From Linnemannia hyalina (lineage: Eukaryota; Mortierellomycota; Mortierellomycetes; Mortierellales; Mortierellaceae): 64,000 bases of DNA. The position numbers were made by a program, and so were the translations under genes. Below are positions 27,980-58,514 of this stretch, in pieces. The notes beneath the pieces are model-generated. The model ran no database searches, was not told the DNA's origin, and was given only the letters and a program-made list of their open reading frames with translations. The stretch lies in NCBI GenBank assembly GCA_019671135.1, contig JAHRHY010000008.1, positions 2,232,001 through 2,296,000 on the forward strand. Reading direction: 5' to 3'. Numbering within the stretch: the stretch's first letter is position 1; each line of letters opens with the position of its first letter.

Positions 27980-28140
27980 AATAATATTTATGTATTGGAT
28001 TGTCATGACGTTAACCAACAATAACAATTTTTTAAAAAGGCTTATACTTAACTGTATACACAACAGCATGTAGGATGGTATCTATCATACAGCAAGCACA
28101 TAGTTGAGAATACAAATATATTTTTATATTTTATTCGGTA

Positions 28141-28634: not shown

Positions 28635-28638
28635 CATA

Positions 28639-30183
28639 CACGCGACTGACTGCTGCCTTGAGCTGCGACGGCATTCGGCCTCCATGCTTCGAGATAGTGG
28701 CGACGTCAAAGGTGAGGTTCTCAATACTGGATACGAAGACTGGATCCGGTTCAACTTTCTGCTTGGGCCTTCTCTTCCTCACGGCATCCTCGCCAATCGC
28801 CTCCTCTGTCACTGGCTCTATCGTGACTACTCCGACAGGTCCACGCCGCCCTCTGTCGCTGCTCTCAATGTGCCCAATTCCTGCGGCGTCATTTAAGGTT
28901 CCAGACACAGGTTCTTCCTCCCAATCCATGGCTCTATCAACGACTTTCGATTTTGCCGGGCTCATATCTTTCTTGGCCTTGGGTCCTACTGGAAGGTTCG
29001 ATCGTTCTTGGCGCCGCTTTTGGTCGACCCCACCCATACTGCGTGTCGTCCTCTGCGCGGCCAAGGCGTGGTCGATTTCGATGCTCTGCACTCTCATCGA
29101 GTTTTGTTGGGTTACGGGGATACTGTTGGGGCCTGTCGCTGGGGTGGTGGACTTGTTGGGGCAAACTCGGGCGACATGTCCTCTTTCATGGCAGTGATAA
29201 CACTCAACAGCAGGGCATTCGTTGGCGTAATGGCCTTCTGCCTGGCACTTATGGCATAATCTGGGCCCGGTGGAAGCAGGAGTAGCGCTGGGTTGCACGA
29301 CTTGGCGGCTGGCTGGCATCTCGATGGCACCACCTCGAATGTGCTGGGCGAACCTAGTGTGGCCGAATACCTTGCGAGCAACGGCTACCGGAAGCCGAGC
29401 AATTGTGCGAGCGACTCGCCCGGCTGAGGTCTGGTCTTCCAACGATGCCAAACTCCAGGACTCAAACATCTTGACCATCTCATCAACTTCTGCTGTCAGC
29501 GTTTCGGGCTCGAAGTCCTTTCTGAAGGCTTGAAACTCTGCGGCAGGGATCTTGGTACCGGCAATCTCGATCGATCCAGTGGTATGCCTGGGTGCGAGCC
29601 TCTCAGCTTCCTTGCGGATCTTGTCCTCGTAAGTCTCCTCCTCATATTGGTTGTGGCGGCAATACTTGGCAAGTGCGGCGTAGGTCCCTGCTAGGGTCGG
29701 CTCGGGATCTCGGTTCTTAACCTTGAAGGGGTGCCCAGGCATCAACCCTCGACAGAACGCAATACTGAAAGTCGCCTCGGCGTCATCGGTCAGCGTATAC
29801 AGGGTAGCATCAGGTTTGGACGTCAACTGTAGCAGCTTGATGTTGGCCTTCATCCTTGCAATGTACCGGTCTGTCAACTCTCCGGTCTTCTGCTTGATGC
29901 TCATTATCTCAGCATATGTACTGGCGGTCGTCCGTGGTCTGGCTATCTCCGCTCGAAAGTCAGTGGAGAACTTTTCCTTACTGCCGTCGGTGGCGAATTC
30001 CAACGCCCATCTCTCCACCCATCCTTTCGCCATACCAGTCGTCTTGAGCTTCACTACTCGCTGGTACGGAAGTTGGGTGATATCGGCAACCTGGTATACA
30101 TCTGCGAGCCAGCTCTCCACATCCATGTCTTGAGCGTTCGTCCATGTCTCGAGGTTTGTGAGGTAAAAGGTCGGGTTTGCCAT
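28639..30183 (-). CDS. gag: Gag half of the gag-pol polyprotein of element A
   Basis: ATG at 30183 (MANPTFYLTNLETW), about 50 bases inside the LTR. The capsid-like region (VESWLADVYQVADITQLPYQ ... WVERWALEFATDG ... LTDRYIARMKANIKLLQ) has the retrotransposon gag pattern. Two zinc knuckles follow: CHKCQAEGHYANEC and CYHCHERGHVARVC. The frame runs on through KAAVSRV to the XY insertion at TATG and resumes at 23150, so gag and pol form one frame without a shift signal. Production of gag without pol would then need protein cleavage or another means, as in other single-frame elements. Confidence 0.92.
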
Positions 30184-38700: not shown

Positions 38701-39748
38701 CTACCAAAACTTTACATCTGGAGAGTACAATTTAGGCAATTCCTCGATCGTGAACCCCATGGCAATTAACTTCTGCTTTTGTTTGTTGTTGGTAAATTTG
38801 TCTCGACTATAGTTACTGTCACCGTTTGCAGGTATCTTATACAGCAGTCCAACAATAATGTCCTCTTCGTACCTCTTGAGCAGATGACATCCGTCGAAAA
38901 GGTAGTTGGTTGCATATTCATGCTTCTTGTCAAACGAACATGTTGTCCATTTAATTTCGTCTTTATCTATGACGATTATACCCGAGGAGCTTTTATCTTT
39001 AGGGTACCTTTTCCACATAACATCCTCAGCATCTTTATCATCCTCAGCATCTTTATCATCTTCAGCATCGTTATCACCCTCAGCATCTTTGTCATCCTCA
39101 GCATCGTTATCGCCCTCAGCATCTTTGTCATCTTCAGCATCTTTATCACCCACCGCATCTTTGTCATCCTCAGCATCTTTATCGCCCTCAGCATCTTTAT
39201 CATCCTCACATGTGCTCTCATCTTTCTGTGGCAAGCTTTGCTTATGCTCATGCGGTTTAAATCCCATAGCAAACAACTTCTCTTTTTCCTTCTGGCTAAG
39301 AGAATGACACTCTACATTCTCTGCAGCAATATGGTCATCAGTCATCAAGCCGATTACAGTGTCTTTTTTGCGCATCTTGAGAATGTGCATTCCATTTACA
39401 AGTACATTCTCGGAATATTCCAAGTACTTGTTAAGTTTTTTCCATATCACCTTGGATTTATCTGTTGGTCCTTCTACTGGTACTTCTTCTTCTACTTCGA
39501 TCTCCTCGTTGAAAAGCGTCTTTCTCTCTTCATCAGACAATGGTTGAAGTTTCATCTTGCTAAGCATGGAGCGTTCCAAGATATCCAACTCTGGAACATC
39601 ACCGACACCGCGCAGAGCATCAAGCGTAAACAGGCCAACGTATGTATTCTTTCCAGATAGCCTGACAATGTACTTGCCATTCATCGTAAACTTAGTTGCA
39701 TACTCAAGCATGTCGTTATTAGGATGAATCATCCATCCTCTGTCCTTC
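38701..39748 (-). pseudogene. Gene X', 3' part only, joined to an LTR of B'
   Basis: Carries the last 350 or so residues of protein X, from DRGWMIHPNND to the end, with three of the four NGKYI-type segments and the DDKDAE array. The front part, with the Cys/His clusters and the acidic linker, is gone: sequence equal to 24817-26217 is missing and the B' LTR starts directly after TCCTTC. The open frame continues into the LTR and finds an ATG at 39834, so a fusion product is possible on paper but nothing shows that it is made. Confidence 0.88.
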
Positions 39749-39955
39749 TGCAACAGGCGAAGACTGGGACAGAGAAGTATAGAACGGGGACGAGAGTTGA
39801 AGCAGTGATGATTGATGTTATTACTATGGTACAACTAAATATATATACAAAGTCGCCAACTAGGTTTCTAGGTGTAGTGTCATAGTGAGTCAGAGATGAT
39901 AGAGAGTGACAAGGAATGACTAACTAGAGAGCAATGATAAACCTAATATGTTGCA
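39749..39955 (-). repeat. 3' LTR of element B'
   Basis: 207 bp, TGCAACAGGCG...ATATGTTGCA on the + strand; a perfect end adjoins the truncated X'. Confidence 0.95.
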
Positions 39956-39980
39956 CCTTCCCCTCTTAAAAAAAAATCCG

Positions 39981-42900
39981 CTAAGTCCTAAGGCCATGGT
40001 CGCGCTTGTACTTGTTGAGGATGTCCTTACAGTGTGCCAGTTCACTCTCTGGTTCCCATGTCCAGTCCTCGCGCGGGTATCCTTGCCATTGTAGAAGGTA
40101 CTCCATGTTGTTGTTAACCTTCCTATGATCTGCAATGGCCTCGACCTCATACTCTTCCTCGTCTTCAACGATAACCGGTGGTGGCCGTGCTGGTGTTCTT
40201 GGTCCTAGCGTCGCAGGTGATGGTTGGTAGCGTCGGAATCGGTCGACGTGGAAGACGGGGTGAATCTTCATGGACGGTGGAAGATCAAGGCGGAAGGAGA
40301 CCGGGGACAGCTGTTCAACAATGGTGTGGGGGCCGGCAAAGCGAGCCAAGAGTTTCTGCGACGTGCGGGTGCGGTCCGAGGGTAAGGTGATATTCTCAAG
40401 GTTAAGGAGAACGTGGTCACCAACCTTGAAATCATGCTCTCGCCGATGGATGTCGGCGTTGGCTGCTTGACGTTCTTGGGCGGCAGCAAGGGACTCCTTA
40501 GCGAGGGTGAGGGCTTCGCTTCGAGATTGCACGAACTCGTTAACCGATGGGTTGGGGCCGGGAGTAGGGGTCAACAATGACATGGGCATGTTGGGATGGG
40601 CTCCGGAGTTCAAGAAGAACGGGGAGACTCCAGTGGAGGCATTGGTGGCGTTGTTCGTGGCAAATTCGGCGGCGGAAAGTAAGAGGTCCCAGTTAGACTG
40701 CCGTTGGTCGACAAAGTTACGGAGCATGGTGATAAGGGTGCGGTTGGCACGCTCGGTCTGGCCATCGGTCTGAGGGTGGAAGGCAGTCGACATGGCAAGG
40801 TGGACGTCCATCAGACGGCTCAATTCTTTCCAAAAGCGGCTCGTGAACTTGGTATCGCGGTCGGAGACAATGGTGGTTGGCATGCCGTGCAAGCGGAAAA
40901 CATGGTCGAAAAAAATGCGTGCAACTTGCGAGGCGGAGTCGGTGGTGTGGCAGGGGGCAAAGTGCACTTGCTTTGTGAGTTTGTCAACAAAGACCGTAAT
41001 GGAGTCAAAGCCGCGTGGGGTCTTGGGTAGGGGGCCGACAAAGTCCATTGTCACCGTTTGCCAGGGTCGATCGGGAATGGGTAGGGGCTGGAGGAGGCCA
41101 GCAGGTGGTTGGTTGCTGGGCTTAGTCCTTTGGCACGACTCACAGGTCTGCACATACAGCCGGGTGTCCTTCGCCATAGATGGCCAGAAGAACCGCGAGT
41201 GGAGATGACCGTACGTCTTCTCGAAACCGAAGTGACCAGCTATAGCGGAGTCGTGTGCATCGTGAAGAAGAGAAAGCCGAAGGTCAGAGTTCGAGGGGAT
41301 ACAAACAAGTAAAAGATCATTACGTTGAATGCAAAGAACACCATCAACAAGAGAGTAATTAGACGGTGGACTTCCCTGGAGGCAGCTTTCATAGATCGGT
41401 TTGAGGCGGTGATCCTCTTTGTAACCATCCATCAGGCGCTGCCGGAGCCTGGGGTCGAGCTGTACTGAGAGTGTGTTAATCTCTCTATGGTCCGGTCGGC
41501 GAGACAGGGCATCTGGGACAATGTTGTCGGCTCCTTTCTTGTACTTGAAGGTGAAGTTGTATTCCTGCAACAGTTCCATCCAGCGGGCCTGACGGCGGGT
41601 GAGTTTGGGTTGAGTGGGGAAGTGTTGGAGGGTGGCATGGTCGGTGTATACGATGAAGTGGGATCCGTCCAGATAGTAGCGCCATGTCTTCAATGCATGT
41701 ACAACAGCCAACAGTTCCTGTTCGTGTGTTGGGTAGTTGCGTTCGGCAGAGTTCAGCTTGCGGGAGGTGAAGGCGACGGGGCGCGACTCGCCATGCTCAT
41801 CGGTCTGAAAGAGAACGGCACCGAGAGCAAAGCCGGAGGCATCGGTTTCGACGGTTGTTAGAAGGTCGGGGTCGAAGATACGTAGAACAGGTGCTTTACT
41901 GATGGCCTCCTTCAGAGTCGTAAACGCTACTTCCTGCTCCTGAGACCAAGAGAAAGGAACGCCTTCACCTAAGAGAGCGGTCAACGGTAGGGCGATCGAG
42001 GCAAAGTTAGCGATGTACTGATGATAGAACTGTGCAAGACCAACAAACTGCTGAACATCTTTCTGCTTCTGGGGACGGGGCCATTCACGGATGGCACGAA
42101 CGAGACCGCCGCTCGTATGGATACCGTCCTTGGAGATGACGTGGCCGAGGAACTCGGTCTCTTTCTGCATAAAGGAGCACTTGCTCAACTTGGCGTAGAG
42201 ACCGTACTTGCGGAGGAGCGTGAGGACGGATCGGAGATGTTGTAGATGTTCGGCCTCGGCGCGCGAGTAGATAAGAATGTCGTCGAGGTAAACAACAACC
42301 CACTTGTCGAGAACAGGGTCTAATACTCGTAGCATCATATTGGAGAAGGACGCCGGTGCATTCGTTAACCCGAAAGGGACCACATTAAATTCGAAATGGC
42401 CGTAGCGGCAACGGAAGGCTGTCTTGTGTGTGTCCTCTTCTGCTATACGTTGCTGATGGTAACCGGAGAGGAGGTCAAGTTTGGTAAAGTAGCGTGCCCC
42501 GCGGAAACGGTCGATAAGTTCATCAATGCGGGGAAGGGGGTGTCTGTTCTTTTTTGTAATCCGGTTTAACCCTCTGTAATCAACACACATACGCAAGGAA
42601 CCATCCTTCTTTTTCACAAACAATACAGGGGCACCATAAGGGGAGGTAGAGGGTTTGATAAAGCCTTTGCCAAGTAGGTCGTCGAGTTGCTTCCTTAGTT
42701 CATCCAATTCAGCAATCGAGAGACGTATAACAGGGCGAAAGGGGGGATCAGCGCTCGGATCAGTTTCGATCTTCATTGCATCGCCTCTGTCAGGGGGAAG
42801 GCCAGAGGGGAGGGAGGAAGGGAAAACGTCGGGGAACTCGTTGTGGACGATGTTGTGAATGTCGGGTGAGAGTGGAGGGGAGGTCGGTTTGTTGTCATTA

Positions 42901-43937
42901 CTGTTGTTGTCGTTGGTCTTTTTAGCGATGTTGACGAGGGCGAGGTAGACAGCGTTTCCAGGTTGGGTAGCAAGGGAGTGAAAGTGAAGGTGAGAGAGGA
43001 GTTTCCCTTGTGTGCGAGCGGAGATGGAGTTGGCGTTGGCACCACGACAGCGCCAGAGAACAGTGTGTCCATTGTGGGTGAAGTGAAGGTCGTTGTTTCG
43101 CCAGTTGATGAAAGGGTTGATGGTCGTTAGCCAGGGTTTTCCAAGGATGAGGTCGTAGTTGGAGAGGGGGTAAATGAGTGCTTCCAGTTTGTCGGAGTAG
43201 TGGTCGCGGTCGATGGTAAAGGTGGAGGTGGATGATGAAATGGAAGAGGAACCGTTTGGAAGGATGATGGGGATGGAGGGGCCAGGAGTGCGAGTGAGGG
43301 AGTGTTGTTTGCAAAAAGAAGAACTGATGACGTTCCCTTCCGCACCGCAATCGATTAAAATACGCGCAGGGGCACCAGCCACATTACCAATAAACGACAA
43401 GAGTGTACGGGAGGCTTTCTCAGCCGTGAAAGCGTGCAGACGGACGGATTTGTGTCGCAAGCGTTTGGTCCTGCGCTTGGACATGGGTTGGTCTAAAGCA
43501 GCAGGAGAGGAGAGTGGGTCCAGGTCCACTTCTTCTGATGGGCTAAGACCAACAGGCGAGGTATCAGATACGTCGTCGGTGAGTTGTAACTCATCGTCAA
43601 AGGGTACCGTGGTGGAGTGAGTGTTGGGGGCAGTGGTGGTCGAGTCGATGGCAATTGAGGAGGGAGTACGAGGCGAGGCAGGGATGGATGAGGGAAAAAG
43701 GGAGAGTGGAGGAGGAGAGAAGGAGAGTTTGTGTAGGCTACGAGGTGCGGATGTGGTAGTGCGAATAATGGATACAGAGGGGGGAGTGTTTTTGATAGCA
43801 GAATTTTTATTCTTGGAACTGTAACTTAACTCTGGTAAGGAAACACTCCCTTTGTCCAGAGGAGAAAGGGAGGGAACGTCGACGATCAAGTCCTGGACTA
43901 AGCCTGATCGTCGGAGGCTTTTCCCGACTCGGGGGAA
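39981..43937 (-). CDS. pol: Pol polyprotein of element B'
   Basis: Same frame and domain order as Pol of B: protease with LIDCGAEG, reverse transcriptase with VVYLDDIL, RNase H, integrase zinc region and core, C-terminal chromodomain. Only one residue was seen to differ (SRAEAEH for SRTEAEH). It is read from the -1 shift at 43919-43925. The polypurine tract GGAAGGGGAG-type sequence lies at 39956-39967 beside the 3' LTR. It looks intact and may supply functional enzyme. Confidence 0.95.
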   Translation of the reverse strand, partial: FPRVGKSLRRSGLVQDLIVDVPSLSPLDKGSVSLPELSYSSKNKNSAIKNTPPSVSIIRTTTSAPRSLHKLSFSPPPLSLFPSSIPASPRTPSSIAIDSTTTAPNTHSTTVPFDDELQLTDDVSDTSPVGLSPSEEVDLDPLSSPAALDQPMSKRRTKRLRHKSVRLHAFTAEKASRTLLSFIGNVAGAPARILIDCGAEGNVISSSFCKQHSLTRTPGPSIPIILPNGSSSISSSTSTFTIDRDHYSDKLEALIYPLSNYDLILGKPWLTTINPFINWRNNDLHFTHNGHTVLWRCRGANANSISARTQGKLLSHLHFHSLATQPGNAVYLALVNIAKKTNDNNSNDNKPTSPPLSPDIHNIVHNEFPDVFPSSLPSGLPPDRGDAMKIETDPSADPPFRPVIRLSIAELDELRKQLDDLLGKGFIKPSTSPYGAPVLFVKKKDGSLRMCVDYRGLNRITKKNRHPLPRIDELIDRFRGARYFTKLDLLSGYHQQRIAEEDTHKTAFRCRYGHFEFNVVPFGLTNAPASFSNMMLRVLDPVLDKWVVVYLDDILIYSRAEAEHLQHLRSVLTLLRKYGLYAKLSKCSFMQKETEFLGHVISKDGIHTSGGLVRAIREWPRPQKQKDVQQFVGLAQFYHQYIANFASIALPLTALLGEGVPFSWSQEQEVAFTTLKEAISKAPVLRIFDPDLLTTVETDASGFALGAVLFQTDEHGESRPVAFTSRKLNSAERNYPTHEQELLAVVHALKTWRYYLDGSHFIVYTDHATLQHFPTQPKLTRRQARWMELLQEYNFTFKYKKGADNIVPDALSRRPDHREINTLSVQLDPRLRQRLMDGYKEDHRLKPIYESCLQGSPPSNYSLVDGVLCIQRNDLLLVCIPSNSDLRLSLLHDAHDSAIAGHFGFEKTYGHLHSRFFWPSMAKDTRLYVQTCESCQRTKPSNQPPAGLLQPLPIPDRPWQTVTMDFVGPLPKTPRGFDSITVFVDKLTKQVHFAPCHTTDSASQVARIFFDHVFRLHGMPTTIVSDRDTKFTSRFWKELSRLMDVHLAMSTAFHPQTDGQTERANRTLITMLRNFVDQRQSNWDLLLSAAEFATNNATNASTGVSPFFLNSGAHPNMPMSLLTPTPGPNPSVNEFVQSRSEALTLAKESLAAAQERQAANADIHRREHDFKVGDHVLLNLENITLPSDRTRTSQKLLARFAGPHTIVEQLSPVSFRLDLPPSMKIHPVFHVDRFRRYQPSPATLGPRTPARPPPVIVEDEEEYEVEAIADHRKVNNNMEYLLQWQGYPREDWTWEPESELAHCKDILNKYKRDHGLRT

Positions 43938-44896
43938 TCACCCACGGCTACTTGATAAACCCATCGTCCTTGGCGGTTGTTGTTGTTGCCACGGTTGGTA
44001 TTGTTGTTGTCGCCGTAGATGGGGCACTCCTTTGCATAATGTCCAGGTTGGCGACAGCGACGGCAAGCATTGTTGTTTTTACACCATTCGCGTTCCTGAG
44101 GGGTCAGGGAAGGGGGATTACCGTTGTTGTTGTTTCGGGGGCCGTTGTTGTTATTGTTGTTGCGGTTGTAGTTATTGTTATGACCCATGTTTCTCTCTAG
44201 GCGATTAAATCGTTGGGTGATATTGTTGAGGGCGATCTGGATGTTGTCGATTTCCATGGGGGTGGCTTGAGAGAGAGCGGAGGAAGAGGTGAAGGAAGAA
44301 ATGATGGGGGCGGAGGCGATGGCGAGCGAGTTGGTCTTGGGGCCGGTGTCGGGTTTGAAGGAGTAAATGCGGTCCATCTCTTGGGCGTATTGAAAGATCT
44401 GAATGAGGGTGATATTGGGGTTTTGAATAATGTGTCCTTCGATCATCTGTTGAAGAACCAAGGGGCAGTTGTCGATAAAGGATGTTTGGGCGAACTCGTT
44501 GACCGTGGTCTTGGCAGCGTCGGTGGAGGCATAACCAAGAAGGGCGCCCAAAAGTTCCTTGAATGTAGATAAGTAGGTCGAAAAGTTGGTGGTCATGCGA
44601 AGATTGGTGAGGTGTCGTCGACAGGAGCCCGCAAAGTTGTTGGGAATGTACTCTAGCTTAAAAGCAGGAGTAAACTCGGTCTCGAAGTTGCAAGTATCAG
44701 GGAGCCCACATCCATCAAACCATCGGGCAGGGCCAGGCGTGCCCAAGTACGAGAGAGCGTGGGGTGTTCGTTCAGTCTCACTTATCTTAGCAAGGTTGAA
44801 GTAGCGGTTAACCGCAACGAGCCAGGCCAAGGCAGAGAAACCGTCGCGGGCGCCTGTAAAGACAGGAGGGGGGTTAAGGCGGGCAGGGGTAACCAT
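43898..44896 (-). CDS. gag: Gag protein of element B'
   Basis: The translation equals Gag of B, with ATG at 44896, the Asn-rich linker and the knuckle CRRCRQPGHYAKEC. The primer site complementary to initiator tRNA lies at 45085-45100. The gag stop and the GGGAAAA shift site keep the same relation as in B. Confidence 0.93.
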   Translation of the reverse strand: MVTPARLNPPPVFTGARDGFSALAWLVAVNRYFNLAKISETERTPHALSYLGTPGPARWFDGCGLPDTCNFETEFTPAFKLEYIPNNFAGSCRRHLTNLRMTTNFSTYLSTFKELLGALLGYASTDAAKTTVNEFAQTSFIDNCPLVLQQMIEGHIIQNPNITLIQIFQYAQEMDRIYSFKPDTGPKTNSLAIASAPIISSFTSSSALSQATPMEIDNIQIALNNITQRFNRLERNMGHNNNYNRNNNNNNGPRNNNNGNPPSLTPQEREWCKNNNACRRCRQPGHYAKECPIYGDNNNTNRGNNNNRQGRWVYQVAVGDSPESGKASDDQA

Positions 44897-45100
44897 GACT
44901 GGTAGTGCAGAGAGAAGTGCGGAGAGGTCAAAAATGTCCAGAGTGTAAGAGGGTACGAAGGAAAATAGGGGCAGGGAATGAAATTCAGGGCTGGTGTGCA
45001 GAGAGAGCTGGGACGAGGGAAAATTAAAGTAAAACGCGGGCAGTGAAAACGAGGAGGGAAAAATCAAGAGGTCAGTGGAACGAGGGAACCTTTGCTACCA

Positions 45101-45307
45101 TGCAACAGGCGAAGACTGGGACAGAGAAGTATAGAACGGGGACGAGAGTTGAAGCAGTGATGATTGATGTTATTACTATGGTACAACTAAATATATATAC
45201 AAAGTCGCCAACTAGGTTTCTAGGTGTAGTGTCATAGTGAGTCAGAGATGATAGAGAGTGACAAGGAATGACTAACTAGAGAGCAATGATAAACCTAATA
45301 TGTTGCA
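45101..45307 (-). repeat. 5' LTR of element B'
   Basis: 207 bp, same as the other B LTRs; its outer flank GAAGTGGAG equals 26218 onward in XY. Confidence 0.95.
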
Positions 45308-45779
45308 GAAGTGGAGTCCTTTATTTATACTAATTCATGGGACACTGCCACACTGGATATTAATAGCGCTTGCTTATTAACACTGCTTGGCGCTTAGTAA
45401 CAAAAGAGTTTTAAAAAGGCATCTAAGTGGTTAATAACGTAGTGTTCCTCGTATGACGTAGATCTTGCTTATTAAGACTGCTTGGCGTTAAAGACGGGGT
45501 TTAAAAATGGTTAAGAATGTAGTATTCTTTTATGACGTAGGTTTGTACATGTGTTTATGTATTCTTTTATGACGTAGGTTTGTACATGTGTTTATCCTCT
45601 TTGTTAAATAAAAAGGAATGTTGTAGAATAGCATAGAATAGCATCCGATCTACTACAATAATACCATGACTTTTAATAATAGATACCGGTGCATATTAGC
45701 GTCTAGGCAGTTAATACCGTATCTCAACGCTGACTAAATAGGCTATGTATGTCTATTATTTTAAAAACCTGCAATAAGT
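45308..45779. other. Remaining Y'-X' spacer
   Basis: Equal to 26218-26689 apart from a few bases. It includes the 37-bp tandem duplication. No gene. Confidence 0.7.
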
Positions 45780-47069
45780 CTACAAATTACCATTAACATC
45801 CATTTGTCGCTTCGTACCTCTAAGCTCAATGGAAAGACCGGGTTGCATTATTACTGCTTGATCCATTGGTGTGTCCTCATCAACATTAACATCAACATCA
45901 CCATGAAGATTAATACCAAGAAATTTGTTCTGGAGTTGTGCCATTGTATTTCCATCCTCCACTAGCGCACCAACATCAACATATCCCATTGGTTGCTCAA
46001 CGTCGTTCTCTGTTGTCGGATACTCGAATCCTTCGCGAAGCCAAGCTGTATGAATTGGTTCTGCAGAAATCTTCAACAAAGCAACCATCTTTTTCATGTT
46101 TAAGAGTAACAAAGATAACTTCAACTGCAAATTATATGTTTGTTTCTTATCCACCAACACAGGAGTACGGTTGTTGTGTTTCTCAAATGTGGAACCAAGG
46201 TCTGCAAACAGAGATTCCATCTGCGAGCGGAAACTACCAAAGGTGGTATTGTATAACGCTTCTTCCTGTGTAAGTTCCTTGTTCTTCTGTTTACGGTATG
46301 GATGAGCGAAATTTTGGATTCTAAGAGTGTCAGACTCATCTATAAGCCTCCTTAAGAACTGTGGATACCCTCCATCGAGAGCAATGCAATCCATCTCATG
46401 CACTCTCTTGTCCAACTTCATCGTTAGCAGCATTGTTCCATCAGCATTGTTCTTGCAAGATGCAGATTTGGAGACAAATAAAGCCATGCCATTACAATCC
46501 ATTGCTACCTGTGTGCGTAATCCTGACTTTTTCAGCTTGTAAGAGTACATATCAGCACTACTCTCACCTTTGTATGTTGCTCTTGTATCATGACCATCAA
46601 GATGCAATGTAACATGCTTAAATAATGGAGGATTCTTTTCCTTTGCAGACAAAAGGCGTATTTTAATTGTGGAGAACATTGTTGCAATACAGTTGGTGAT
46701 GTACTTGTTGTGCAAAGTATATTCTTTCTTATAAAACACAGAGTGCATTGCATGAAAACTACTTTTTGGCATGTGTGGTTCCATTGCTTCCATAGACAGT
46801 CCTTTGACAAGATGGTAGAGCATTAAAAGACCTTTCTCCACTTCTTTGTATGGACCAGGATACTTAACCTTTGGCCAGATGTCAACAAGAAAGAAGTACA
46901 CTGGAATAGGACCAAGGCGTCGATTTAGGGTTTCTTTTATTTCTGGCATATACCCAATTTCCTTGCTTACAGTACGATGATTATTACGTGGTGTAATTGT
47001 TGGCCATCCAGCGTTGAGGAAAGTCCAATGGTCATCAAGCAGTTGTTGGAAGTGTTTTGTTAGATCCAT
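45780..47069 (-). CDS. DDE transposase Y' of the second XY copy
   Basis: Start at ATG 47069 as for Y; the upstream ATG at 47159 is also in frame. 429 residues, differing from Y at only a few positions (Arg-Ile for Lys-Leu in the TLKLQNFAH segment). The Asp 158, Asp 232 and Glu 285 pattern is kept, so the enzyme appears intact although its companion X' is truncated. It could act in trans on 494-bp units and on XY copies elsewhere. Confidence 0.85.
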   Translation of the reverse strand: MDLTKHFQQLLDDHWTFLNAGWPTITPRNNHRTVSKEIGYMPEIKETLNRRLGPIPVYFFLVDIWPKVKYPGPYKEVEKGLLMLYHLVKGLSMEAMEPHMPKSSFHAMHSVFYKKEYTLHNKYITNCIATMFSTIKIRLLSAKEKNPPLFKHVTLHLDGHDTRATYKGESSADMYSYKLKKSGLRTQVAMDCNGMALFVSKSASCKNNADGTMLLTMKLDKRVHEMDCIALDGGYPQFLRRLIDESDTLRIQNFAHPYRKQKNKELTQEEALYNTTFGSFRSQMESLFADLGSTFEKHNNRTPVLVDKKQTYNLQLKLSLLLLNMKKMVALLKISAEPIHTAWLREGFEYPTTENDVEQPMGYVDVGALVEDGNTMAQLQNKFLGINLHGDVDVNVDEDTPMDQAVIMQPGLSIELRGTKRQMDVNGNL

Positions 47070-47222
47070 AATAATATTTATGTATTGGATTGTCATGACG
47101 TTAACCAACAATAACAATTTTTTAAAAAGGCTTATACTTAACTGCATACACAACAGCATGTAGGATGGTATCTATCATACAGCAAGCACATAGTTGAGAA
47201 TACAAATATATTTTATTCGGTA

Positions 47223-47716
47223 GCGGCCCCTTCATGTGCAGAGGATATAAAAAGGCATATAAAAAATATCCAAAGTCCAAGGAACGGAGTGTTGACTTCC
47301 ATAACTGGCATATCTCTTCATAGTGGGCAACAGAACACAGAATAAAATAGCAATAGACAGCACAAGAATTTTTAAAATGTAATCTCTCCCCTGTATTTCA
47401 CGACAAAGATACAGTTGAGAATACAAGTGCTTTAGATGATGACATACAAGAACTACTCTGTCGAATCTTGCAGTGAGGGTTACAGTTTAATAGTAGATGA
47501 ACACATTCAAGATATTGGTGAGCGAAAAATAAGAAGACTTTGTTGTTTGGAGAATGTAGTTGTGTTTAGTAGGATAATCGCGCAAGGAATGTTACAGTGG
47601 TTGTTTTAAATGGTTGATATCATACATACACTCTCCTCTAATGGACGCGGTGGATATCGTCAAGATCTGCAGAGATGTAACAAACACCATATGATAATTT
47701 GGACTTGAAAGGCCTC
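47223..47716 (+). repeat. 494-bp unit, copy 5, mosaic
   Basis: The first part, up to about GGGTTACAG near 47486, equals the other copies. From there to about 47635 some twenty bases differ; the last 80 or so bases are again equal. The left flank is the Y' 5' side (ATTCGGTA) and the right flank is CTTACGAG, the start of the ZW terminal repeat. CTTA would be a suitable 4-base target, like CATA elsewhere. Confidence 0.88.
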
Positions 47717-48572
47717 CTTACGAGTTTATCAAGAATGTATTAAAATTAAACATCACAATAATCACGAGGTAATCCAAAATGCGTTCATATCAAATATCAT
47801 AACTGTGGTAATAACTACAGTTTGTCAGCTGTCGAATCGAATGCCGAATGTCAAATGTCGAATGTCGAATATTGTTGAGAAAGTGTAGCAATAACGCCAT
47901 TAAAAACGTATCAGCTACCCTTTCTTTCCAACAACCAATGTTTGTTAAAGCCACTATGCTACTTTTTTAAAAAATCGGGATCCAACTTTTTTTTAAAACT
48001 ACCACTACATCATCACCAGTATCACGAGTGCTATATTGGATATACACATAGGATATATCATGAAAAGGAGATATTAGTAACCATCGCTAATTATATAAAC
48101 ACGAAAACAAATGCTCTACTAGGAGGCCATCCATGTTCGGCTCCACCAACCATAGACTACAGTATAAAAATATCTGTCAACACCTATTAAAACAGTGTGT
48201 TCCTTGAGAGTACAACAAATCTCATCAGCTTTTTCCTTCCACCAGTCTCCATTTTCTACATTCACCACCACTACTTTGTAACATCATCTACTTTAGCTGA
48301 GAAAGCCTTGGACATGATCATCTCATATTGGAAAGGAAATTACTATCTGTAATATCTAGGATCCAATATGAGATGATCATGTCCAAGGCTTTCTCAGCTA
48401 AAGTAGATGATGTTACAAAGTAGTGGTGGTGAATGTAGAAAATGGAGACTGGTGGAAGGAAAAAGCTGATGAGATTTGTTGTACTCTCAAGGAACACACT
48501 GTTTTAATAGGTGTTGACAGATATTTTTATACTGTAGTCTATGGTTGGTGGAGCCGAACATGGATGGCCTCC
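47717..48572 (+). repeat. ZW terminal direct repeat, left copy (856 bp)
   Basis: CTTACGAGTTTATC... to ...ATGGCCTCC. Differs from the right copy by a couple of substitutions and by the inverted central loop of its palindrome. The first part holds a short GAATGTC-type iteration near 47843-47870. Confidence 0.93.
48122..48572. repeat. 451-bp perfect palindrome with 31-nt loop, orientation 1
   Basis: Arms 48122-48331 and 48363-48572 are 210 nt each and exact reverse complements as read. The loop 48332-48362 starts AAAGGAAATTAC and ends ATCTAGGAT. Outer ends read GGAGGCC/GGCCTCC. The right arm also encodes the region just before, and the start codon of, gene Z (ATG at 48564). Confidence 0.96.
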
Positions 48573-49949
48573 AAAGACAATAGTTTTTTTAGCTCTAAAC
48601 TACTAGAAAAACATAGAAAAAAGTTTAGAAGTACGGCCTTATACCATGCAGGATATTTCAGCATTAAGGTAACGCTCAATGAACTGGAGGCCATCTCTTT
48701 AATTTCCGAGTTACCACCAATATTTTATGAGCTTGAGGTTGACTATGTTATTCTCCATGATATAGACATTGCTACGGATTGTAGATATGTTACAAGCCGT
48801 CCAATTCTTCAGCAATACCTTCAAGAGAGATTTGGAGAAGATTTGGATATTGCCGACGATCTCCATAAGGTTGGTAACCACTGTCTCTCTTGGTTTGGAG
48901 TTACCGAAAAAGACCAAAAGGTCCGTTGTAAGGTTTATAACAAACTTGTACAGATGTTGGAGAGTGCTGAAGTAAAAATGTCGTTGGGTTCAAGAATGGA
49001 AAATTTTGTTATGGATGTGGATAAGGACCTACATAAGAGACTTCGAAAGGCGAAGAAAACAGGTCTAACAAGACTTGAACTTACCTTTTATGGACAGGAG
49101 ATATATACATTCTCCTATTATAAAGGAGTCTTGGATGCCACAAAGGAAGAGATCCAAGAATGTCCCACCTTCTGCGTAAAACACAAGGCATATTGGAAGT
49201 ATATAGTTGGTAATATATCATCCATGGTAGGTATTCATGTAACAAGGGGTGAAAAATCGGCATTCGCATATTGCCATTGGTGGAACTCTGTTACAGGTAA
49301 GAAGTATGGTTCATATCGTAACAATGTCGAGAAAGAGGAAGCAATGACGTTGTTAGCCAACTATAGCTTCAACGATAGACCAATATACTTTTTGGAGGTT
49401 GAGATGGATGAGAATAGCATTAAGGATATTACAGTTACCAAGTACAAACGGCCTGACGAATGTACAGCAATAACACTTGTTGCAGGAGCACATAAAGGCA
49501 TGTACCCATACATTTACGATGATGACGTTTTACAATTCGAGGATATGGGTATAGTGGAGGTGGATAATGTAAAGATCCAATGGCCTGAGAGAAGAATCCG
49601 CAAAGGTGCACCACCAATTGTTGATATTCATCTAGAAAACATGAATGGTGAGAATTTTATACAAGTCCATGATAGAGCTATCCACAAAGCAACATACAAA
49701 GCTGGATATAATGTACTTGAAATAAATACCAGCTATACAGTCATAGCAATTGCAATGGATATGTATCACAACAAAGAATATATTTTTGCAACATTGTCCA
49801 ATGGTATTAAAGTACGATGTGGACTTAGTTTAGAAACAAAGATCGTTGCATGGCTGGAAGAATATCCCGATGGCCAAGTTCCGTATATGAATTTCACCAC
49901 ATTGCAATGCAGAACTGTTCGCGGGTTCAAGGATATTTATATACGTTAA
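48564..49949 (+). CDS. Protein Z of ZW, replication-initiator-like pattern
   Basis: ATG at 48564 (MASKDNSFF) lies in the last nine bases of the palindrome. The frame is open upstream through the right arm (NGDWWKEKADEICC...) but lacks an ATG there. 461 residues; family not firmly recognised. Three segments in order recall rolling-circle type replication initiators of the phage/plasmid Rep class: VILHDIDIATDC (Asp 66, Asp 68), VRCKVYNKLVQML (Tyr 125, Lys 127) and GLTRLELTFYG (Arg 170, Glu 172). In that class a D-x-D, a (V/I)Y(D/N)K and an R(L/V)E element build the nicking domain. The C-terminal half is Asp- and Tyr-rich with no recognised domain. The location between hairpin-forming termini would suit a nickase. 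The Rep assignment is a hypothesis; the gene itself is well supported by length and composition. Confidence 0.7.
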   Translation: MASKDNSFFSSKLLEKHRKKFRSTALYHAGYFSIKVTLNELEAISLISELPPIFYELEVDYVILHDIDIATDCRYVTSRPILQQYLQERFGEDLDIADDLHKVGNHCLSWFGVTEKDQKVRCKVYNKLVQMLESAEVKMSLGSRMENFVMDVDKDLHKRLRKAKKTGLTRLELTFYGQEIYTFSYYKGVLDATKEEIQECPTFCVKHKAYWKYIVGNISSMVGIHVTRGEKSAFAYCHWWNSVTGKKYGSYRNNVEKEEAMTLLANYSFNDRPIYFLEVEMDENSIKDITVTKYKRPDECTAITLVAGAHKGMYPYIYDDDVLQFEDMGIVEVDNVKIQWPERRIRKGAPPIVDIHLENMNGENFIQVHDRAIHKATYKAGYNVLEINTSYTVIAIAMDMYHNKEYIFATLSNGIKVRCGLSLETKIVAWLEEYPDGQVPYMNFTTLQCRTVRGFKDIYIR

Positions 49950-49986
49950 GAATGCTAATAGATAGTTTTTAAAAATTACAATGGGC

Positions 49987-51246
49987 TTACTTTGTACGCT
50001 TATATGATGGAATCTCCACTCCTGCAAAAATTTCACGTCGCTTATTAGTCGACTCTTCCCGTTGTTTATCCTCGACATCCATAGTAGTCATCTCCAAGAA
50101 CTGCTCTTGTAACTTTGTTATATCTCGTGCATTATGCAACATCTCATCCACTGGAATATAATCCAAGATTTGTTCCATTGCACCATTGGCATATGGAAAG
50201 TCGAAGCCATCTCTAATCCAGGCACTATGAATGGGTTCCAGATTTAACTGCAGTAGTGCCACCATCTTCTTGATGTTCATAAGTAAGAGACACAATCGCA
50301 ATTGCAAATTATATGTTTCTATCTTGGTTACCAACACTGGTTTCCTATTGTTGTGCTTCTCAAAGGTTGCTCCAAGATCTCCAAATTCGGCTTCTATCTG
50401 AGAGCGGAAACTGCCGAAAATCTTATTGTAGTTAGTTTCATCTTGTGCAAGATCTTTCCCACGGCTTTTGCGAATTGGATAACAAAAGTTTTTCTTGCTC
50501 ATGCTTGTTTCTTCTACTATTTTCTTAATGTATTGTGTGTACCCTCCATCCAATGCAATACAATCTAGCTCGTGGATGTGCTTATGTATCTTCATACCAA
50601 CCAACATAGTACCATCGTTGTTATCCTTGCAAGGTAGCGATTTAGAGACTAGTATTGCCATTCCATTGCAATCGACACACACTTGCGTTCTTACACCAGA
50701 TTTCTTCAGCTTGTAAGAGTACATGTCTGAGCTAGACTTTTCTTCACATGAAAGACGTGTATCATGACCATCCAAATGCAATGTTACATGTGGGAATAGT
50801 GGTGGATTCCTGAGTTTAGCAGAAATCAAGCGTATAGGAAATGTGGAGAACATATTCGCAAGTGCATGGTTAATATGCTTCGAATGCACATTATAGTTAG
50901 TCTTGTAGAACTCTGTATGAATGGAGTGGAAACTACTTTTTGGTATGTGGGTTGACATTCCATCCATTGCCAAGCCTGCAACTAAGTGGTACAATATCAA
51001 CAATCCTTTGTCGACTTCTCTGTATGGACCTGGATACTGCTTGAGAGACCAAATAACTACAAGAAAGTAGAATACAGGAATTGCACCTAATCTTCTTATA
51101 AGTAAGTCTTTAACAGTTTTCATGTGTGCTACTAGCTTCAACGCAGTCCTATGATTATTGGATGGTTCTTGCGTAGGCCATTCTGCATCCAAAAAAGTCC
51201 ATTCATCCTCTAACAACCGTTGAAATAGGCGCTTTAAGTTTGCCAT
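49987..51246 (-). CDS. DDE transposase W of ZW
   Basis: ATG at 51246 (MANLKRLFQRLLEDEW); upstream frame without ATG is ignored. 419 residues, aligned with Y over its length. Catalytic pattern: HVTLHLDGHDTR (Asp 159), LDCIALDGGYTQYI (Asp 233), FGSFRSQIEAEFGDLG (Glu 285). The segments YSYKLKKSG.RTQV..DCNGMA and TFEKHNNR.PVLV are shared with Y. The gene converges with Z and leaves under 40 bases between stops. Its 5' side faces the 133-bp tandem array and the right terminal repeat. No stop or shift was seen. It is the probable enzyme that joins ZW to its target; how it works together with Z is unknown. Confidence 0.85.
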   Translation of the reverse strand: MANLKRLFQRLLEDEWTFLDAEWPTQEPSNNHRTALKLVAHMKTVKDLLIRRLGAIPVFYFLVVIWSLKQYPGPYREVDKGLLILYHLVAGLAMDGMSTHIPKSSFHSIHTEFYKTNYNVHSKHINHALANMFSTFPIRLISAKLRNPPLFPHVTLHLDGHDTRLSCEEKSSSDMYSYKLKKSGVRTQVCVDCNGMAILVSKSLPCKDNNDGTMLVGMKIHKHIHELDCIALDGGYTQYIKKIVEETSMSKKNFCYPIRKSRGKDLAQDETNYNKIFGSFRSQIEAEFGDLGATFEKHNNRKPVLVTKIETYNLQLRLCLLLMNIKKMVALLQLNLEPIHSAWIRDGFDFPYANGAMEQILDYIPVDEMLHNARDITKLQEQFLEMTTMDVEDKQREESTNKRREIFAGVEIPSYKRTK

Positions 51247-51479
51247 AACTGTAATTACAACCTGGTAAACTATTAGCAAAAATTCCTTTATATAACACAC
51301 TTTTGGATTTTTTAAAACTATTAACGATAAACACGATAGGGGAGCAAGCCCCTCAACCAGATGTTAAAGTACTTCATCATGGCGGTTTTGCGACCACTTT
51401 TTTGTAACCACCAATTTTCTCCCAACCACCAAAGTATACAAACGATATTTTATAGACATTTCCTAAGTCTACATAACTT

Positions 51480-52150
51480 TTATTTATACAACTTCTTTTT
51501 TCTGTCTTGTTATCACACAAAATGCGATAGAAATGTCACAATATTCATACCCATTTGCATCACGAAATATGGGATACGTTTTAAGAAACGTCTATTTTAA
51601 ACGACATAATTATTCTGTTAACAACTTCTTTTTTCTGTCTTGTTATCACACAAAATGCGATAGAAATGTTACAATGTTCATACCCATTTGCATCACGAAA
51701 TATGTGATGTGTTTTAAGAAACGTCTATTTTTAACGACATAATTGCTCTTTAAACAACACATTTTCTCTACCTTATTATCATACAAAATGCGATAGAAAT
51801 GTTACAATGTTCATACCCATTTGCATCACGAAATATGTGATACGTTTTAAGAAACGTCTATTTTAAACGACATGATTACTCTGTTAACAACACATTTTCT
51901 CTACCTTATTATCACACAAAATGCGATAGAAATGTTACAATGTTCATACCCATTTGCATCACGAAATATGTGATGTGTTTTAAGAAACGTCTATTTTTAA
52001 CGATATAATTACTCTATTAACAACACATTTTTTCTATCTTGTTATCACACAAAATGCAATAGAAACGTTGTAATATAATAGCCATTTGCATTATAAAATA
52101 TGTGATGTGTTTTAAGAACGTCTATTTTAAACGATATAATTGTTATATCT
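51480..52150. repeat. Five tandem copies of a 133-bp AT-rich unit
   Basis: The marker AAAATGC recurs at 51519, 51652, 51785, 51918 and 52051, a regular 133-bp step. Units share TTATCACACAAAATGCGATAG, CATACCCATTTGCATCACG-like and GTTTTAAGAAACGTCTATTT-like segments and drift gradually. The array lies between the start of gene W and the right terminal repeat. It could be a promoter array, iteron-like protein binding sites or a plain satellite. Confidence 0.92.
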
Positions 52151-52331
52151 ACAACTACCCACAATACATGGTCTAATTGCGATATCTCTGTTTTTACCAT
52201 TGTCGTAATTACCTACAATCTGTATAACAATAAATGCTATAACAATTGTAAGTTAACCAAAGTGTAATAATATTAAACGTCGTGCAAATCGTGGGCTTAC
52301 CTAAAGTATGTCAACATTAAACATTGTAATA

Positions 52332-53187
52332 CTTACGAGTTTATCAAGAATGTATTAAAATTAAACATCACAATAATCACGAGGTCATCCAAAATGCGTT
52401 CATATCAAATATCATAACTGTGGTAATAACTACAGTTTGTCAGCTGTCGAATCGAATGCCGAATGTCAAATGTCGAATGTCGAATATTGTTGAGAAAGTG
52501 TAGCAATAACGCCATTAAAAACGTATCAGCTACCCTTTCTTTCCAACAACCAATGTTTGTTAAAGCCACTATGCTACTTTTTTAAAAAATCGGGATCCAA
52601 CTTTTTTTTAAAACTACCACTACATCATCACCAGTATCACGAGTGCTATATTGGATATACACATAGGATATATCATGAAAAGGAGATATTAGTAACCATC
52701 GCTAATTATATAAACACGAAAACAAATGCTCTACTAGGAGGCCATCCATGTTCGGCTCCACCAACCATAGACTACAGTATAAAAATATCTGTCAACCCCT
52801 ATTAAAACAGTGTGTTCCTTGAGAGTACAACAAATCTCATCAGCTTTTTCCTTCCACCAGTCTCCATTTTCTACATTCACCACCACTACTTTGTAACATC
52901 ATCTACTTTAGCTGAGAAAGCCTTGGACATGATCATCTCATATTGGATCCTAGATATTACAGATAGTAATTTCCTTTCCAATATGAGATGATCATGTCCA
53001 AGGCTTTCTCAGCTAAAGTAGATGATGTTACAAAGTAGTGGTGGTGAATGTAGAAAATGGAGACTGGTGGAAGGAAAAAGCTGATGAGATTTGTTGTACT
53101 CTCAAGGAACACACTGTTTTAATAGGTGTTGACAGATATTTTTATACTGTAGTCTATGGTTGGTGGAGCCGAACATGGATGGCCTCC
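52332..53187 (+). repeat. ZW terminal direct repeat, right copy (856 bp)
   Basis: Same orientation as the left copy. Ends GGCCTCC against CTTGGGACTTG of the Helitron helicase frame. Directly upstream is unique AT-rich sequence of about 180 bp after the tandem array. Confidence 0.93.
52737..53187. repeat. 451-bp palindrome with 31-nt loop, orientation 2 (inverted)
   Basis: Arms 52737-52946 and 52978-53187, with one mismatch in the left arm (CCCC against CACC in GTCAAC.CCTATT). The loop 52947-52977 is the exact reverse complement of the loop at 48332-48362. Confidence 0.96.
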
Positions 53188-56100
53188 TTGGGACTTGTTA
53201 ATAGTCATTGCAAAGGCAGGTCGGATAGGGAACTGGAGTCGACGGAACTTGAACGGCATATCGAGATCAGAAGGGCAGATCGGGATGCGGGAAAGGAATA
53301 CTTGATTGCCGGCATGTGTTCCTGTAATGATAGTGGCTCCCAAGACGTACCGGGAGAGAGACGTACATATCAGTCGTGTACCATTGCAAAGTCCTTCCTG
53401 GGGCATAAGGTTTCGAAGGAGTATGACAGGGCAACCCACGGTCAATCTTAGGCAGTGAGGAGGGAGCGAAGACGACTTGAGGCCGTTCAGAAACTCAATA
53501 GGAAACAGAGCGTCCACTCTATCGTCCTCTTTATCGATGATGGAGTCCTGCGAGAGAAACTCCTTTGATTCTCCTTGTATGGTCGACATGATGTGGTTGT
53601 TGACTTCATCGACGTTGTCGTTTGTTGGACAGAGCACTGCGCGCTGATTGAGATACTGGGTATTGCCAATATTGTGCTGGAGATCAGGGTAGACTTTGGC
53701 AATAAGATCGTCAATGTTGGCATTGGCTGGCATCACCATCTGGGGTGGGAGTGTGATGTTGGTGGAGATTCCATTGTCTAGAGACGGGCCGGGAACTGTT
53801 CCTTCTCCGACTTGAAGAAGCCAGTTTGCAAACCCGGTTTGTTCCTCGATGTCGGGAGCGTTGGCATTTCTGAGAAGGCGCATGTTGACGGAAAGATGGA
53901 GGTGTTGGATGTGTTGCCAGAGTGGAGATCGTTTAAAGCAGGCTCCAATGGTTTCCTCTCTGCGTCCTTGCTTGACAACTGGAGGAATCTGCCTAAAGTC
54001 GCCGCCAAAGACCATGAGCTTTCCTCCAAAGGGATGGTGTTCGTTCTCAGGGTCCACAGTTTTCATTAGGTCTTTGAGAGTGCGGTCTACAGCCTCGAAG
54101 ATATGCCGATGTGTCATAGGAGCTTCGTCCCAGACAACGATCTTGGCCTGGATGAGAAGATCTGCAACTTCTGACCTGTGATTGACTGAACAAACACTGT
54201 CCTCGTGGGTAGGGACGGGAATCTTAAAGCGCGAGTGAGCGGTTCTTCCGCCTTGTAGAAGTAATGCGGCAATTCCAGATCCGGCGACGGCAAGAGCGAT
54301 ATCGTGATTTGACCGGACCATAGATAGGATAAGGGAGTAAAGGAAGGTCTTCCCTGTGCCTGCGGGACCATCGATGAAGTACGTCTCGGAAGTGTTCATC
54401 TCATAGGAGCGCTTGATTCGGTCGTATGCTTCCCTCTGATTCCCATTGAGTGACTGCTCCATCACGGCGAAATCTTCTGCGCTGGGCAAAGGGTAATTCA
54501 ACTCGTCTGCAATAAATGCATTTACGTTGGGACCATGCTGCTCCAGTATGACGGGCTCGGGCATGCCTTCATAGTCGTGGAGAGTCTTGCCGAGGTTTCT
54601 CAGGAGGACTTGTAAGTGGATCAGCGCAGCATTTGCACGCTGGTCTGCAAAGGATATCCGCTGCTCAGGACTGGTAGCGTCACGTTCCCTTGGACGGAGA
54701 TCATCAGACAGTGCATCGCGAAAGGTGGTCCAAAGCTGAGCAGGATTTGTCGGGTTGCAAAAGGCAAGGATCTTTGCAAAAAGAGAGCGGAGTTGGTATC
54801 CCGTTTGACTGACAGCGGCATCCCGAAGACAGTTCTCCCATTCGCGATCGTCTTGAAGCATGCCAAGGGCGATGCAAGCGGCCTTGAACGTAGGGTGGAC
54901 CTCGTTTTCGACTGTTCTCAGGTCCTCAAACGATATAGGACTTGGCACCGAGAGCAGTAACAACCGCAAATAAAACAGATCGCCTGCGGTATCATGCACA
55001 AAAAACAGTCGGCCGACTGTACATCCTCTCTCCCTGAGCTTCCATCGCTTCTCGCTCTTGAGGTAAACGTGGGTTTGAGGAAAGTTGTGGTACTTTGAAG
55101 GCGGCTCATCAGGATGGTGACGGTTATAGTCGAAGAATGCAGTCAGCGTACTGCGCTCCAGTGCGGCTCTCTCTAGGACATCAGCGATGGGTTCGTCCGA
55201 GCGGAAGGCATGCATGAACTGACCGGGGAGATGCAAATGCAACCTGGTGACGGATGGATAGGCACTGTGCAGGCGAAATCCAAATATGCGCCAAGCAGAC
55301 TCGGAAGCAGAGACGTAGCGACCGTCGATGAAATCAATGATCTCATTGGCTTCTTGCACAGGAAGATCACCGGCGACCTGAGTTCCGTCTTGTGCCGGCT
55401 GTTGGACCACAACAGTGGCTCGATCATGGCCCTTGTAGACGTACTTGTACAGATACTTGACGGCAGTGGAAGAGGTGCAGCTTTCGACATTAATGTGGGC
55501 GCCGTACTTTGCGGCCAGATAGGGGTTATGCGGAACGACCCAACGGTTGTCAATCTCGAAATCTCCCCGGCCATCGATCCTGATCGTCCTTCCATCCATG
55601 CGGCGCCGGTACTGCGGATATCCATTTGGTCCGTTTGTAGTGTTCGCGAGGAAGGGCTTGGGATAGCCTTTGGTACACACGCCGTTCTCCATGCATGGGG
55701 AGTTCCTATTTGCCGGTCCACATGGGCCATGGATCATTGTTCTCTTGACGGTCTCGTAGGCAGCTGGGTGCGTTTCAGGATCGGGAATCTCAGCAGATAT
55801 GTATTTGTCGTAGTCTGCAGGCAATCCAGGCTTGTGCTCAGGGCTCATGATGAGCAGAATGTGTGCGTGGGGTAGTCCACGCTTCTGGAACTCAATAACA
55901 TGAATCATGCCGACAACCTTTCCAAGGACTTGCTTTTTCAACAGATCATGTGGGAGTTCCTTCAGCTTGATGTGAAAGACGCGTGTCGTCAGGTCCGGGC
56001 GGTCAGCCGCTGTCTGGTTTGGGAAAAGTTCTGACGTGATTTCGGGCCACTTGGGGTTACAGGTAAAAGTGACGAAATAATCCGGTGTCGATTCGAAGGC

Positions 56101-58514
56101 ACGGACAATGGCCATTGCATCTTGGTACAGCTGCTGCATGTATCGGGGTCCGCTGACATAACTTGAAGGGAGGACGACCCGTCTTTCAACGGCAGCGGCG
56201 TCGACATCCCCAGCATTGACCGCATCCTGTAAGCCTGTGGAGATATCATGTCCAAAAAATAAATAATAATAATAATAATTAGAATTCTGAGAATGATCAA
56301 TGCACCCTCAACATCTCAAAAATGGTTCCCTTGATTACCTGAGTAGAGCTCAATACGAAGGGTCTGCTGATTATGCTTCAGAAAGTTGAGGCGATTCATG
56401 TCCATGGTGCAAAACATGTCAACCATCAATTGCTGAAAGAGGCGTCTTGAACGGAACATGTACTCGCTGCTATCGCCAATGCGGTATTGGAGGCGATAGG
56501 CGAAGAAATCCATCATGGTGATCCTGTGAGTATAGTTTCCCGGAGCATGCTCCTCATCGCCTTCACCCTCGTCGTCTTCACCTTCACCCTCATTGTTGAG
56601 ACCCATTGCAGCTTGAGGATCAGCGTCGCCTAGGTGATTGTCGAGGATTTCATCATTATCGCCCTGGTCGATCTGCTCCTCGAGGTCGTTCTCGACGTCA
56701 TCGTCGTCGTTGTCGCCAAGGTCCATATTGTCGTTGTTGTTGTCGTTGTCGTTGTTGTTGCCGTTGTTGTCAATGTCCATCTCATTAGCATTGGCTTGAT
56801 CCAATAGTGGCTGTAGATTATGAGGTGGAACTGGATGTCGATAAGCAAGTTGTGGATCTAGGACATGCTGCAAGACATCTTCCGGAGGTTGAGGGTTGTT
56901 TCGAGTGAGTCCTAGGTGATATCCATCCTCCCCACGTAGAAACAACAGCGGGTAACAGAGAGGAAAGTATAACTGGTGCAGTGCTGAGACCTGATGAAGG
57001 CGGTTGTTGTGAAGCTGGATGATTATATCCCGATTCCCAGGTGCATCTGTTGCATCGCCAGGAAGAATGGCGGCGAATTCATCGGCGGTGGGTCGATTGT
57101 AGCGTCTCGCGTCACCCGCCCTCTGACAAACGATCTTTAAGCCCAGAACCGGTGCATCGTCCGCTCGAATACGCTGTCCGATGGTCTTGAACCTCTTGGC
57201 GTACGGATTGTGCCTGTACATGAGGCGATGAAGGATGCGGATAATCCTTCTGTCCTTGTCTCGGTCTCGTGCTTGCACACCATCCCCGCCGTTTGGAAGA
57301 GCCTGGTTCCTTGACCCATAGATGAAATCCAAGCGTCGATCGACTTCAGCGTCCTGGTCCGAGTCGTGAAAATAAATCTGGGCAAACTGAGGTTGTTGGG
57401 CGTTTGGTGGGAGAATACCGCCGATCTTGTGGTAAAGCTGGCCCTTGACTTGAAAGGTATTTGGGCCTCTGCCAGGCGGTCGCCGCATGTCACGGTACTT
57501 TGTACTGGTGCCAAAGGATGCAAAAGCAAAGGCATTGTTGAAGGTCCGTGTGTTTGCCAGAAATCGCTTGGAGAGAGGGGTATCGCCTCTAAACAGTTCT
57601 TGTAATTCGGCAGGGGGAGCTTCAATAGTCGGCATTTTGACTCTTCCTTGGAGGCAACACATAGAGAAACGCGGAGTTACGACCGCACATCCGACGCGTT
57701 CCTGGATATATTCAGAAGATAGAAAAAAAAGTTAGGAATCTAAAAAAAATGCAGAAGATGTTTTAAAAAAAATGACTGATATTATATTGTTACCTCTCTC
57801 CAATGTAAGGCGCCACAGTGAGAGCAAACGACGTTCATCCGATCCAGGGCCTTGTATTCTGTATCATCTTGTTCCTTGCAAGCAGCCATTCCATTTCCGA
57901 ACACACGTACAGCAGGAGCATCAGGAATAGCAGGAGCGGCGGCAGGAGCGGCAGGAATAACAGGAATAGCAGGAATAGCAGCAGCGGCAGAGACTATAGG
58001 AGCAGCAGGAGTGGCAGGAACAGTATGGGCAGCAGGAGCAATAGGAGCAGCAATGAGCAGGTATCGTCGATTCATAGGACAATCCTTGTGACTTTTGCGA
58101 CTATGGCCAAGCCGTCCGCAAGATTGACACTTTAGAGCAGAATGAGGAGTAGCAGCGATAGGAGTAATTGAGGCAGCCGGAGAAATGGAAATAGCATGCC
58201 TGCGAGAGCCTTCCGCAGCTTCTTGATTGATTCGATCTTCTTGTCGTCGGCGTTCCATATCTCTTTGGGCGTCTTGGGCTATATCACTTGGGATAGTTAT
58301 GGAGTTTGATGGTCTGTCCCTCCCCATAAACAAAAGAAAACGATAGAAAAGGTCACATTTCTTTAGCAACAGGAGCGGTTACACTTTATAACCTTTTCAT
58401 TCTCATTTGCTCATACCTTTTTTTGTAGAGGCGGCATTTCGTTGAGGTATTTCGAGAATGTCCTGGTTGCTTGCAGCTTGCGCATAAACGCATAACATTG
58501 GTGGCCGATAACAT
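53188..58514 (-). CDS. Helitron Rep-helicase, spliced, 3' end lost to ZW insertion
   Basis: Proposed exons on the minus strand: 58514-58417 (MLSATNVMRLC, zinc knuckle CASCKQPGHSRNTSTKC), 58319-57794 (second knuckle CQSCGRLGHSRKSHKDC, Ala/Pro-rich linker, VVCSHCGALHWRE), 57701-56339 (RFSMCCLQGRVKMP; N-terminal Helitron domain with an acidic Asn-rich linker) and 56234-53188. All joins keep frame; the first exon is the least certain. The Rep part has FQKRGLPHAHILLI (HUH) and VKYLYKYVYKGHD (the two-tyrosine motif). The helicase part has FIDGPAGTGKTFLYSLIL (Walker A), VWDEAPMTHRH and VFGGDFRQIPPVV, ending FAMTINKSQ where the ZW palindrome begins. The last helicase motif and the Helitron 3' end are therefore absent, and this copy cannot make a full enzyme. 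Helitrons move by a rolling-circle-like process using this protein. Confidence 0.9.

Follow-up and report, generated by a model that had tools for sequence, protein, structure and literature searches.

The 64,000-nucleotide window analysed here is part of contig C49 (GenBank JAHRHY010000008.1, positions 2,232,001 to 2,296,000) of a Linnemannia hyalina genome examined over 51.5 Mb in 50 contigs. Positions 47,717 to 53,187 hold two nested copies, A and B, of a transposon that carries the convergent genes Z and W between long terminal inverted repeats (TIRs), each capped by a palindrome whose asymmetric central loop occurs in two orientations. The region is organized as follows, the loop state being given as 'out' or 'in'.

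47717–48121: inner TIR stretch of element A, cut on its left side at 47717 by another element
48122–48572: 451-bp terminal palindrome that closes element A on the right; its loop is in state 'out'
48332–48362, + strand: asymmetric loop of the left palindrome, with a small stem, ATTAC-TATCT-GTAAT, upon DNA folding
48573–49946, + strand: Z, Rep_trans-like, residues 129–586 of 586, truncated by the nested insertion
49990–51246, − strand: W, a 419-aa DDE_Tnp_4 (PF13359) transposase, convergent with Z
51265–53187: right TIR of element B, including tandem repeats and palindrome; matches element positions 5607–7797, its start being approximate and inferred from the alignment offset
51471–52135: 133-bp tandem repeats in the TIR
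52737–53187: 451-bp terminal palindrome that closes element B on the right; its loop is in state 'in' and its arms mismatch at one base
52947–52977, − strand: loop of the right palindrome, the reverse complement of the left loop

The two 451-bp palindromes and the inverted loop are present as reported in the preliminary description of this DNA, which had taken them for the two ends of a single Z–W element; that assignment is not supported, since each is the right end of a separate nested element. Positions 47717–48572 recur as an 856-bp direct repeat at 52332–53187 and match element positions 6941–7797. The truncated Z continues in frame from the palindrome arm, which produces a 508-aa open reading frame at 48423; about 50 of its residues (VVNVENGDWW...) come from an open frame in the arm (48423–48572). 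A Helitron-type helicase frame (53122–56139) is split by element B at 53187.

An intact copy on C2 (19764–27560; L031:1065–8861) has 2,191-bp TIRs that are exact inverted repeats, with the 451-bp palindrome at the outer start and 133-bp tandem repeats within, around a unique centre where Z (586 aa, + strand) converges on W (419 aa, − strand). With frames of at least 100 aa considered, the 7,797-bp copy has no other long gene; a third frame, of 110 aa, lies opposite Z. Eight left–right pairs span exactly 7,797 bp, and the C9 pair has a shortened left palindrome. A loop pattern search allowing up to three mismatches found 98 loops, together with 205 arm ends. Scoring of 75 of 183 candidates gives at least 81 Z matches in the genome; at least 30 span 576 or more of the 586 residues at 96% identity or higher without a stop, and at least 28 others, at 39–41%, form a second family. 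All named source organisms of Z homologues are Mortierella or its kin. At a second-family locus (L052, C12:1871000–1878000), Z and W are likewise convergent between inverted repeats with 413-bp tandem repeats, and no closely spaced palindrome was seen there.

W matches the Pfam profile PF13359 (DDE_Tnp_4) with an E-value of 2.3e-07 and 31 bits against a cut-off of 24.8. Its residues D159, D233 and E285, invariant in an alignment of 38 sequences, are the putative DDE triad. Insertion is accompanied by a 3-bp target-site duplication (TSD), as expected of a DDE_Tnp_4 transposon: both flanks were available for 15 of 27 pairs, of which 12 show the same 3 bp on either side (about 1.7% by chance) and none agrees over 4 bp. 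The fused pair at C13:787598 accounts for two of the three exceptions. For one target, an empty site with a single TAT exists at 112 places with at most three mismatches, 40 of them exact.

Terminal flip/flop is a mark of hairpin-ended viruses. Loop orientation was read by combining loop positions with a search for the TIR–palindrome junction (71 places), 36 of the 98 loops having no adjoining junction. The 64 readable ends, in which two bridging palindromes are counted twice and four of the outward ends derive from a single insertion, divide into 34 outward and 30 inward, so that the single orientation that would have undone the flip/flop claim does not occur. Left–right neighbour pairs with both loops (n=21) comprise seven out/out, six in/in, five out/in and three in/out. 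For the core comparison 12 copies were used, with L042 and L043, which retain too little core, excluded. Six copies show no substitution over the 3,415-bp core, and read from the 5′ side of Z they are out/out, in/in, in/out, in/out, out/in and in/in. All four end combinations thus occur among core-identical copies, as the hairpin idea predicts; flip/flop is a property of the whole family, and the loop flips faster than one substitution arises per core.

The palindrome has the terminal sequence GGAGGCC on both sides, and its arms are perfect over 211 nt with 29 nt between them. Base-by-base comparison of 60 palindromes, chosen by near-exact match so that older ones may be missed, showed perfectly matched arms in 58, two singleton arm changes and only one common variable site, within the loop (C 25, T 25, A 10). 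Folded as DNA, the loop places the ATTAC-TATCT-GTAAT stem atop the long stem in either orientation; folded alone it is only somewhat better than shuffled sequences (z −1.8; 12 of 200 shuffles did equally well). A less common loop type, found at three places, keeps this stem with an altered tip.

Conversion from other copies would be expected to leave the two loop alleles of an element unrelated. Alleles are concordant between element ends in 17 of 21 pairs against 10.3 expected (P=0.00075), while orientations agree in 13 of 21. TIRs, compared without their palindromes in 11 pairs, are mostly matched too: six of the eight equal-length pairs show no mismatch (L036 has 1 and L034 has 23), and the three unequal-length pairs show 0 (L038), 1 (L043) and 60 (L050). 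Against L031, TIRs mostly differ by 1–5 bases, the left TIR of L043 by none. At both C27 ends and C49:2280122, truncated TIRs are misaligned (15–16% divergence), and mean divergence was not used. Given the concordant alleles and matched TIRs, the flipped loop is most likely made from the sequence of the palindrome itself. This weakens another explanation, namely that recombination or gene conversion among the roughly 100 palindromes, pairing in either register, shuffles the orientations: such exchange should mix alleles between ends, and within-element TIR pairs should not have stayed mostly matched. We consider it improbable, even though the arms are nearly invariant, flank exchanges and one fusion through palindromes are observed, and 66 of 79 loops are no more than 100 kb away from a contig end, a region in which exchange of this kind is common (about 10% expected; counted on contigs known to be longer than 200 kb, leaving out 12 loops on contigs without a recorded length and seven on short contigs). 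The four discordant pairs (C5, C16 and two sharing the C13 bridge) may record exchange events of this kind. At C13:780385–795523 (L049/L050), two head-to-tail elements are joined by one bridging palindrome, which carries loop allele C, against A at both outer ends.

A flip within the palindrome could also happen in place, by cruciform extrusion, by template switching between the arms in ordinary replication or by arm recombination, unlinked to transposition or to Z. This is the main rival to flipping during movement, and in our judgement somewhat unlikely. Two points weigh in its favour and against the hairpin reading: perfect 211-nt arms separated by 29 nt lend themselves to it, and it would likewise preserve the loop allele and yield a 50:50 orientation. 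Against it, a single insertion that is found in each of four duplicated stretches (C5, C6, C19 and C23) has the same left loop throughout (three comparisons), and its right-end state is the same in C5 and C6, the two copies read. Nor is there a flip in C29:19966 against C37:25141 or in the C15 pair, which are less clean because bodies or wider flanks differ. These few comparisons favour flipping during element movement over flipping in place. Two apparent same-site flips, C13:24055 against C16:734061 and C29:38161 against C12:3784747, were dropped: their target repeats have 121 and 112 places, so both are probably separate insertions; the second comparison also shows opposite bodies and a TIR that differs at 58 of 588 positions.

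Lone palindromes with a 3-bp TSD, 9 of 15 usable (10 of 17 before removal of two overlapping C47 rows), raise the possibility that W alone is responsible. Each palindrome, with GGAGGCC at either end, would then be the smallest unit able to move and would be reoriented by its own cutting and rejoining, while Z would have another role. Lone palindromes would also be expected from end-to-end recombination, like solo long terminal repeats (LTRs), and elements that in other respects moved as single units have ends that differ in orientation; W alone is accordingly given a low probability. The lone palindromes without a TSD include C8:23774 and C8:27885 (L029 and L028), whose flanks agree once swapped, probably through an inversion between the palindromes.

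It is very hard to credit that the assembler picked an orientation arbitrarily at each palindrome, as 451 bp is short relative to long reads and duplicated copies are consistent in orientation. What speaks for such an artefact is that contigs C4, C6, C19 and C23 break inside palindromes and that C27 carries a perfect inverted duplication around one. The ends of C6, C19 and C23 break at palindrome base 232, and the start of C4 begins at base 3 (L047, L045). Hairpin chromosome ends were considered for these contigs and rejected: C6, C19 and C23 all carry the same insertion, which was duplicated, and an assembly break is therefore the simpler reading. A repeat, TTTTTTAGGG, occurs at the end of C4 and the start of C6. 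The C27 duplication (63140–66590, L009), 3,451 bp, palindrome-centred, perfect except for the loop and extending past the TIR, either arose when a broken chromosome was duplicated by folding back or is an artefact of assembly.

The Rep-like character ascribed to Z in the preliminary description stands, with a change of family: Z does look like a rolling-circle nickase, on modest structural evidence, and the type it resembles is Rep_trans (pT181/MOBT) rather than the HUH Rep of parvoviruses. With residues paired by motif order, Z contains the elements described in the accessible part of PMC4797284: a catalytic Tyr in YxK (Y250 and K252 in 75 of 75 sequences), DxAxD (D193 and D197 in 74, A195 in 48), RxE (R295 in 74, E297 in 75) and a strand-1 Asp (D81 in all 70 non-gap sequences). 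R140 of RepDE is not conserved, Z having D there (N in one of 75). The Rep_trans profile PF02486 does not match Z at E≤1, is absent from the 25 of 51 families listed for the 75 Z homologues and has no match in the genome at E≤10. Pfam profile scans list no HUH or helicase family for Z or W. The same part of PMC4797284 has pT181 Rep nicking within the loop of a stem-loop, and by analogy the tip of the small stem is a candidate nick site.

Flip/flop palindromes, a transposase and a nickase-like protein in one element suggest a hairpin stage for its ends during movement. The favoured mechanism, at about even odds, has the loop flip through this fold-back state during mobilization, with Z probably acting as the nickase. 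More tentatively, and with less than an even chance of being right, we propose that the family represents a hairpin-telomere replicative transposon, which would be a class of mobile element new to eukaryotes. A bacterial-type Rep_trans nickase would replicate or resolve its ends in a rolling-hairpin-like cycle, and the DDE transposase would insert the product. If true, it would unite the lifestyles of a linear replicon and a transposon. The family also suggests a Rep_trans-type nickase working beside a DDE transposase inside a eukaryotic nuclear transposon, and makes passage of DDE elements through hairpin-ended intermediates testable in a fungal system where about 100 chromosomal palindromes display terminal flip/flop, which can be traced through new insertions. 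A literature search found no description of a DDE transposon with flip/flop palindromic ends.

W-type genes are frequent in the flanks of the palindromic element. In the window, related W-type DDE elements lie at 45308–47721 and 26218–28639, about 58% identical to W, and no Z match was seen beside them within the window. An LTR-type element with terminal direct repeats of about 207–211 bp is present as two inverted copies (13798–19357 and 39748–45307; 99.98% identity over 5,560 bp).

With the hairpins of parvoviruses (adeno-associated virus type) and poxviruses the element shares a terminal palindrome in two orientations, all four combinations and sequence-matched ends; it shares tandem repeats inside the TIRs with poxviruses and, in Z, a putative nickase with parvoviruses. 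It differs in being a chromosomal DDE transposon with TSDs and a putative nickase of another family, and the 7,797-bp copy has only Z and W as long genes, with neither an HUH Rep with helicase nor capsid genes. PIF/Harbinger proper has a TWA target preference and a Myb-like second protein, and neither was found here. The element has in common with PIF/Harbinger-IS5-like transposons a DDE_Tnp_4 transposase, TIRs, two genes and the 3-bp TSD, which is also that of PIF/Harbinger in the accessible part of PMC2213677; here, however, the second gene is Rep_trans-like and the 2.2-kb TIRs are capped by 451-bp flip/flop palindromes. KolobokP composite-like transposons, which combine a DDD/E transposase with a His-Me finger endonuclease, are likewise eukaryotic DDE elements carrying a second nuclease, but of another transposase superfamily and nuclease fold, and the available portion of PMC9587614 mentions no flip/flop ends. 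Finally, Rep_trans initiators and MOBT relaxases (pT181 RepD, RepSTK1, RelSt3) come, in the parts of PMC4797284 and PMC6499999 at hand, from bacterial plasmids, phages and integrative and conjugative elements; no match to Z was found at the sequence level and R140 is replaced by D, whereas the acidic triad, K/RxYxK and RxE are shared and the predicted crescent sheet may be similar.
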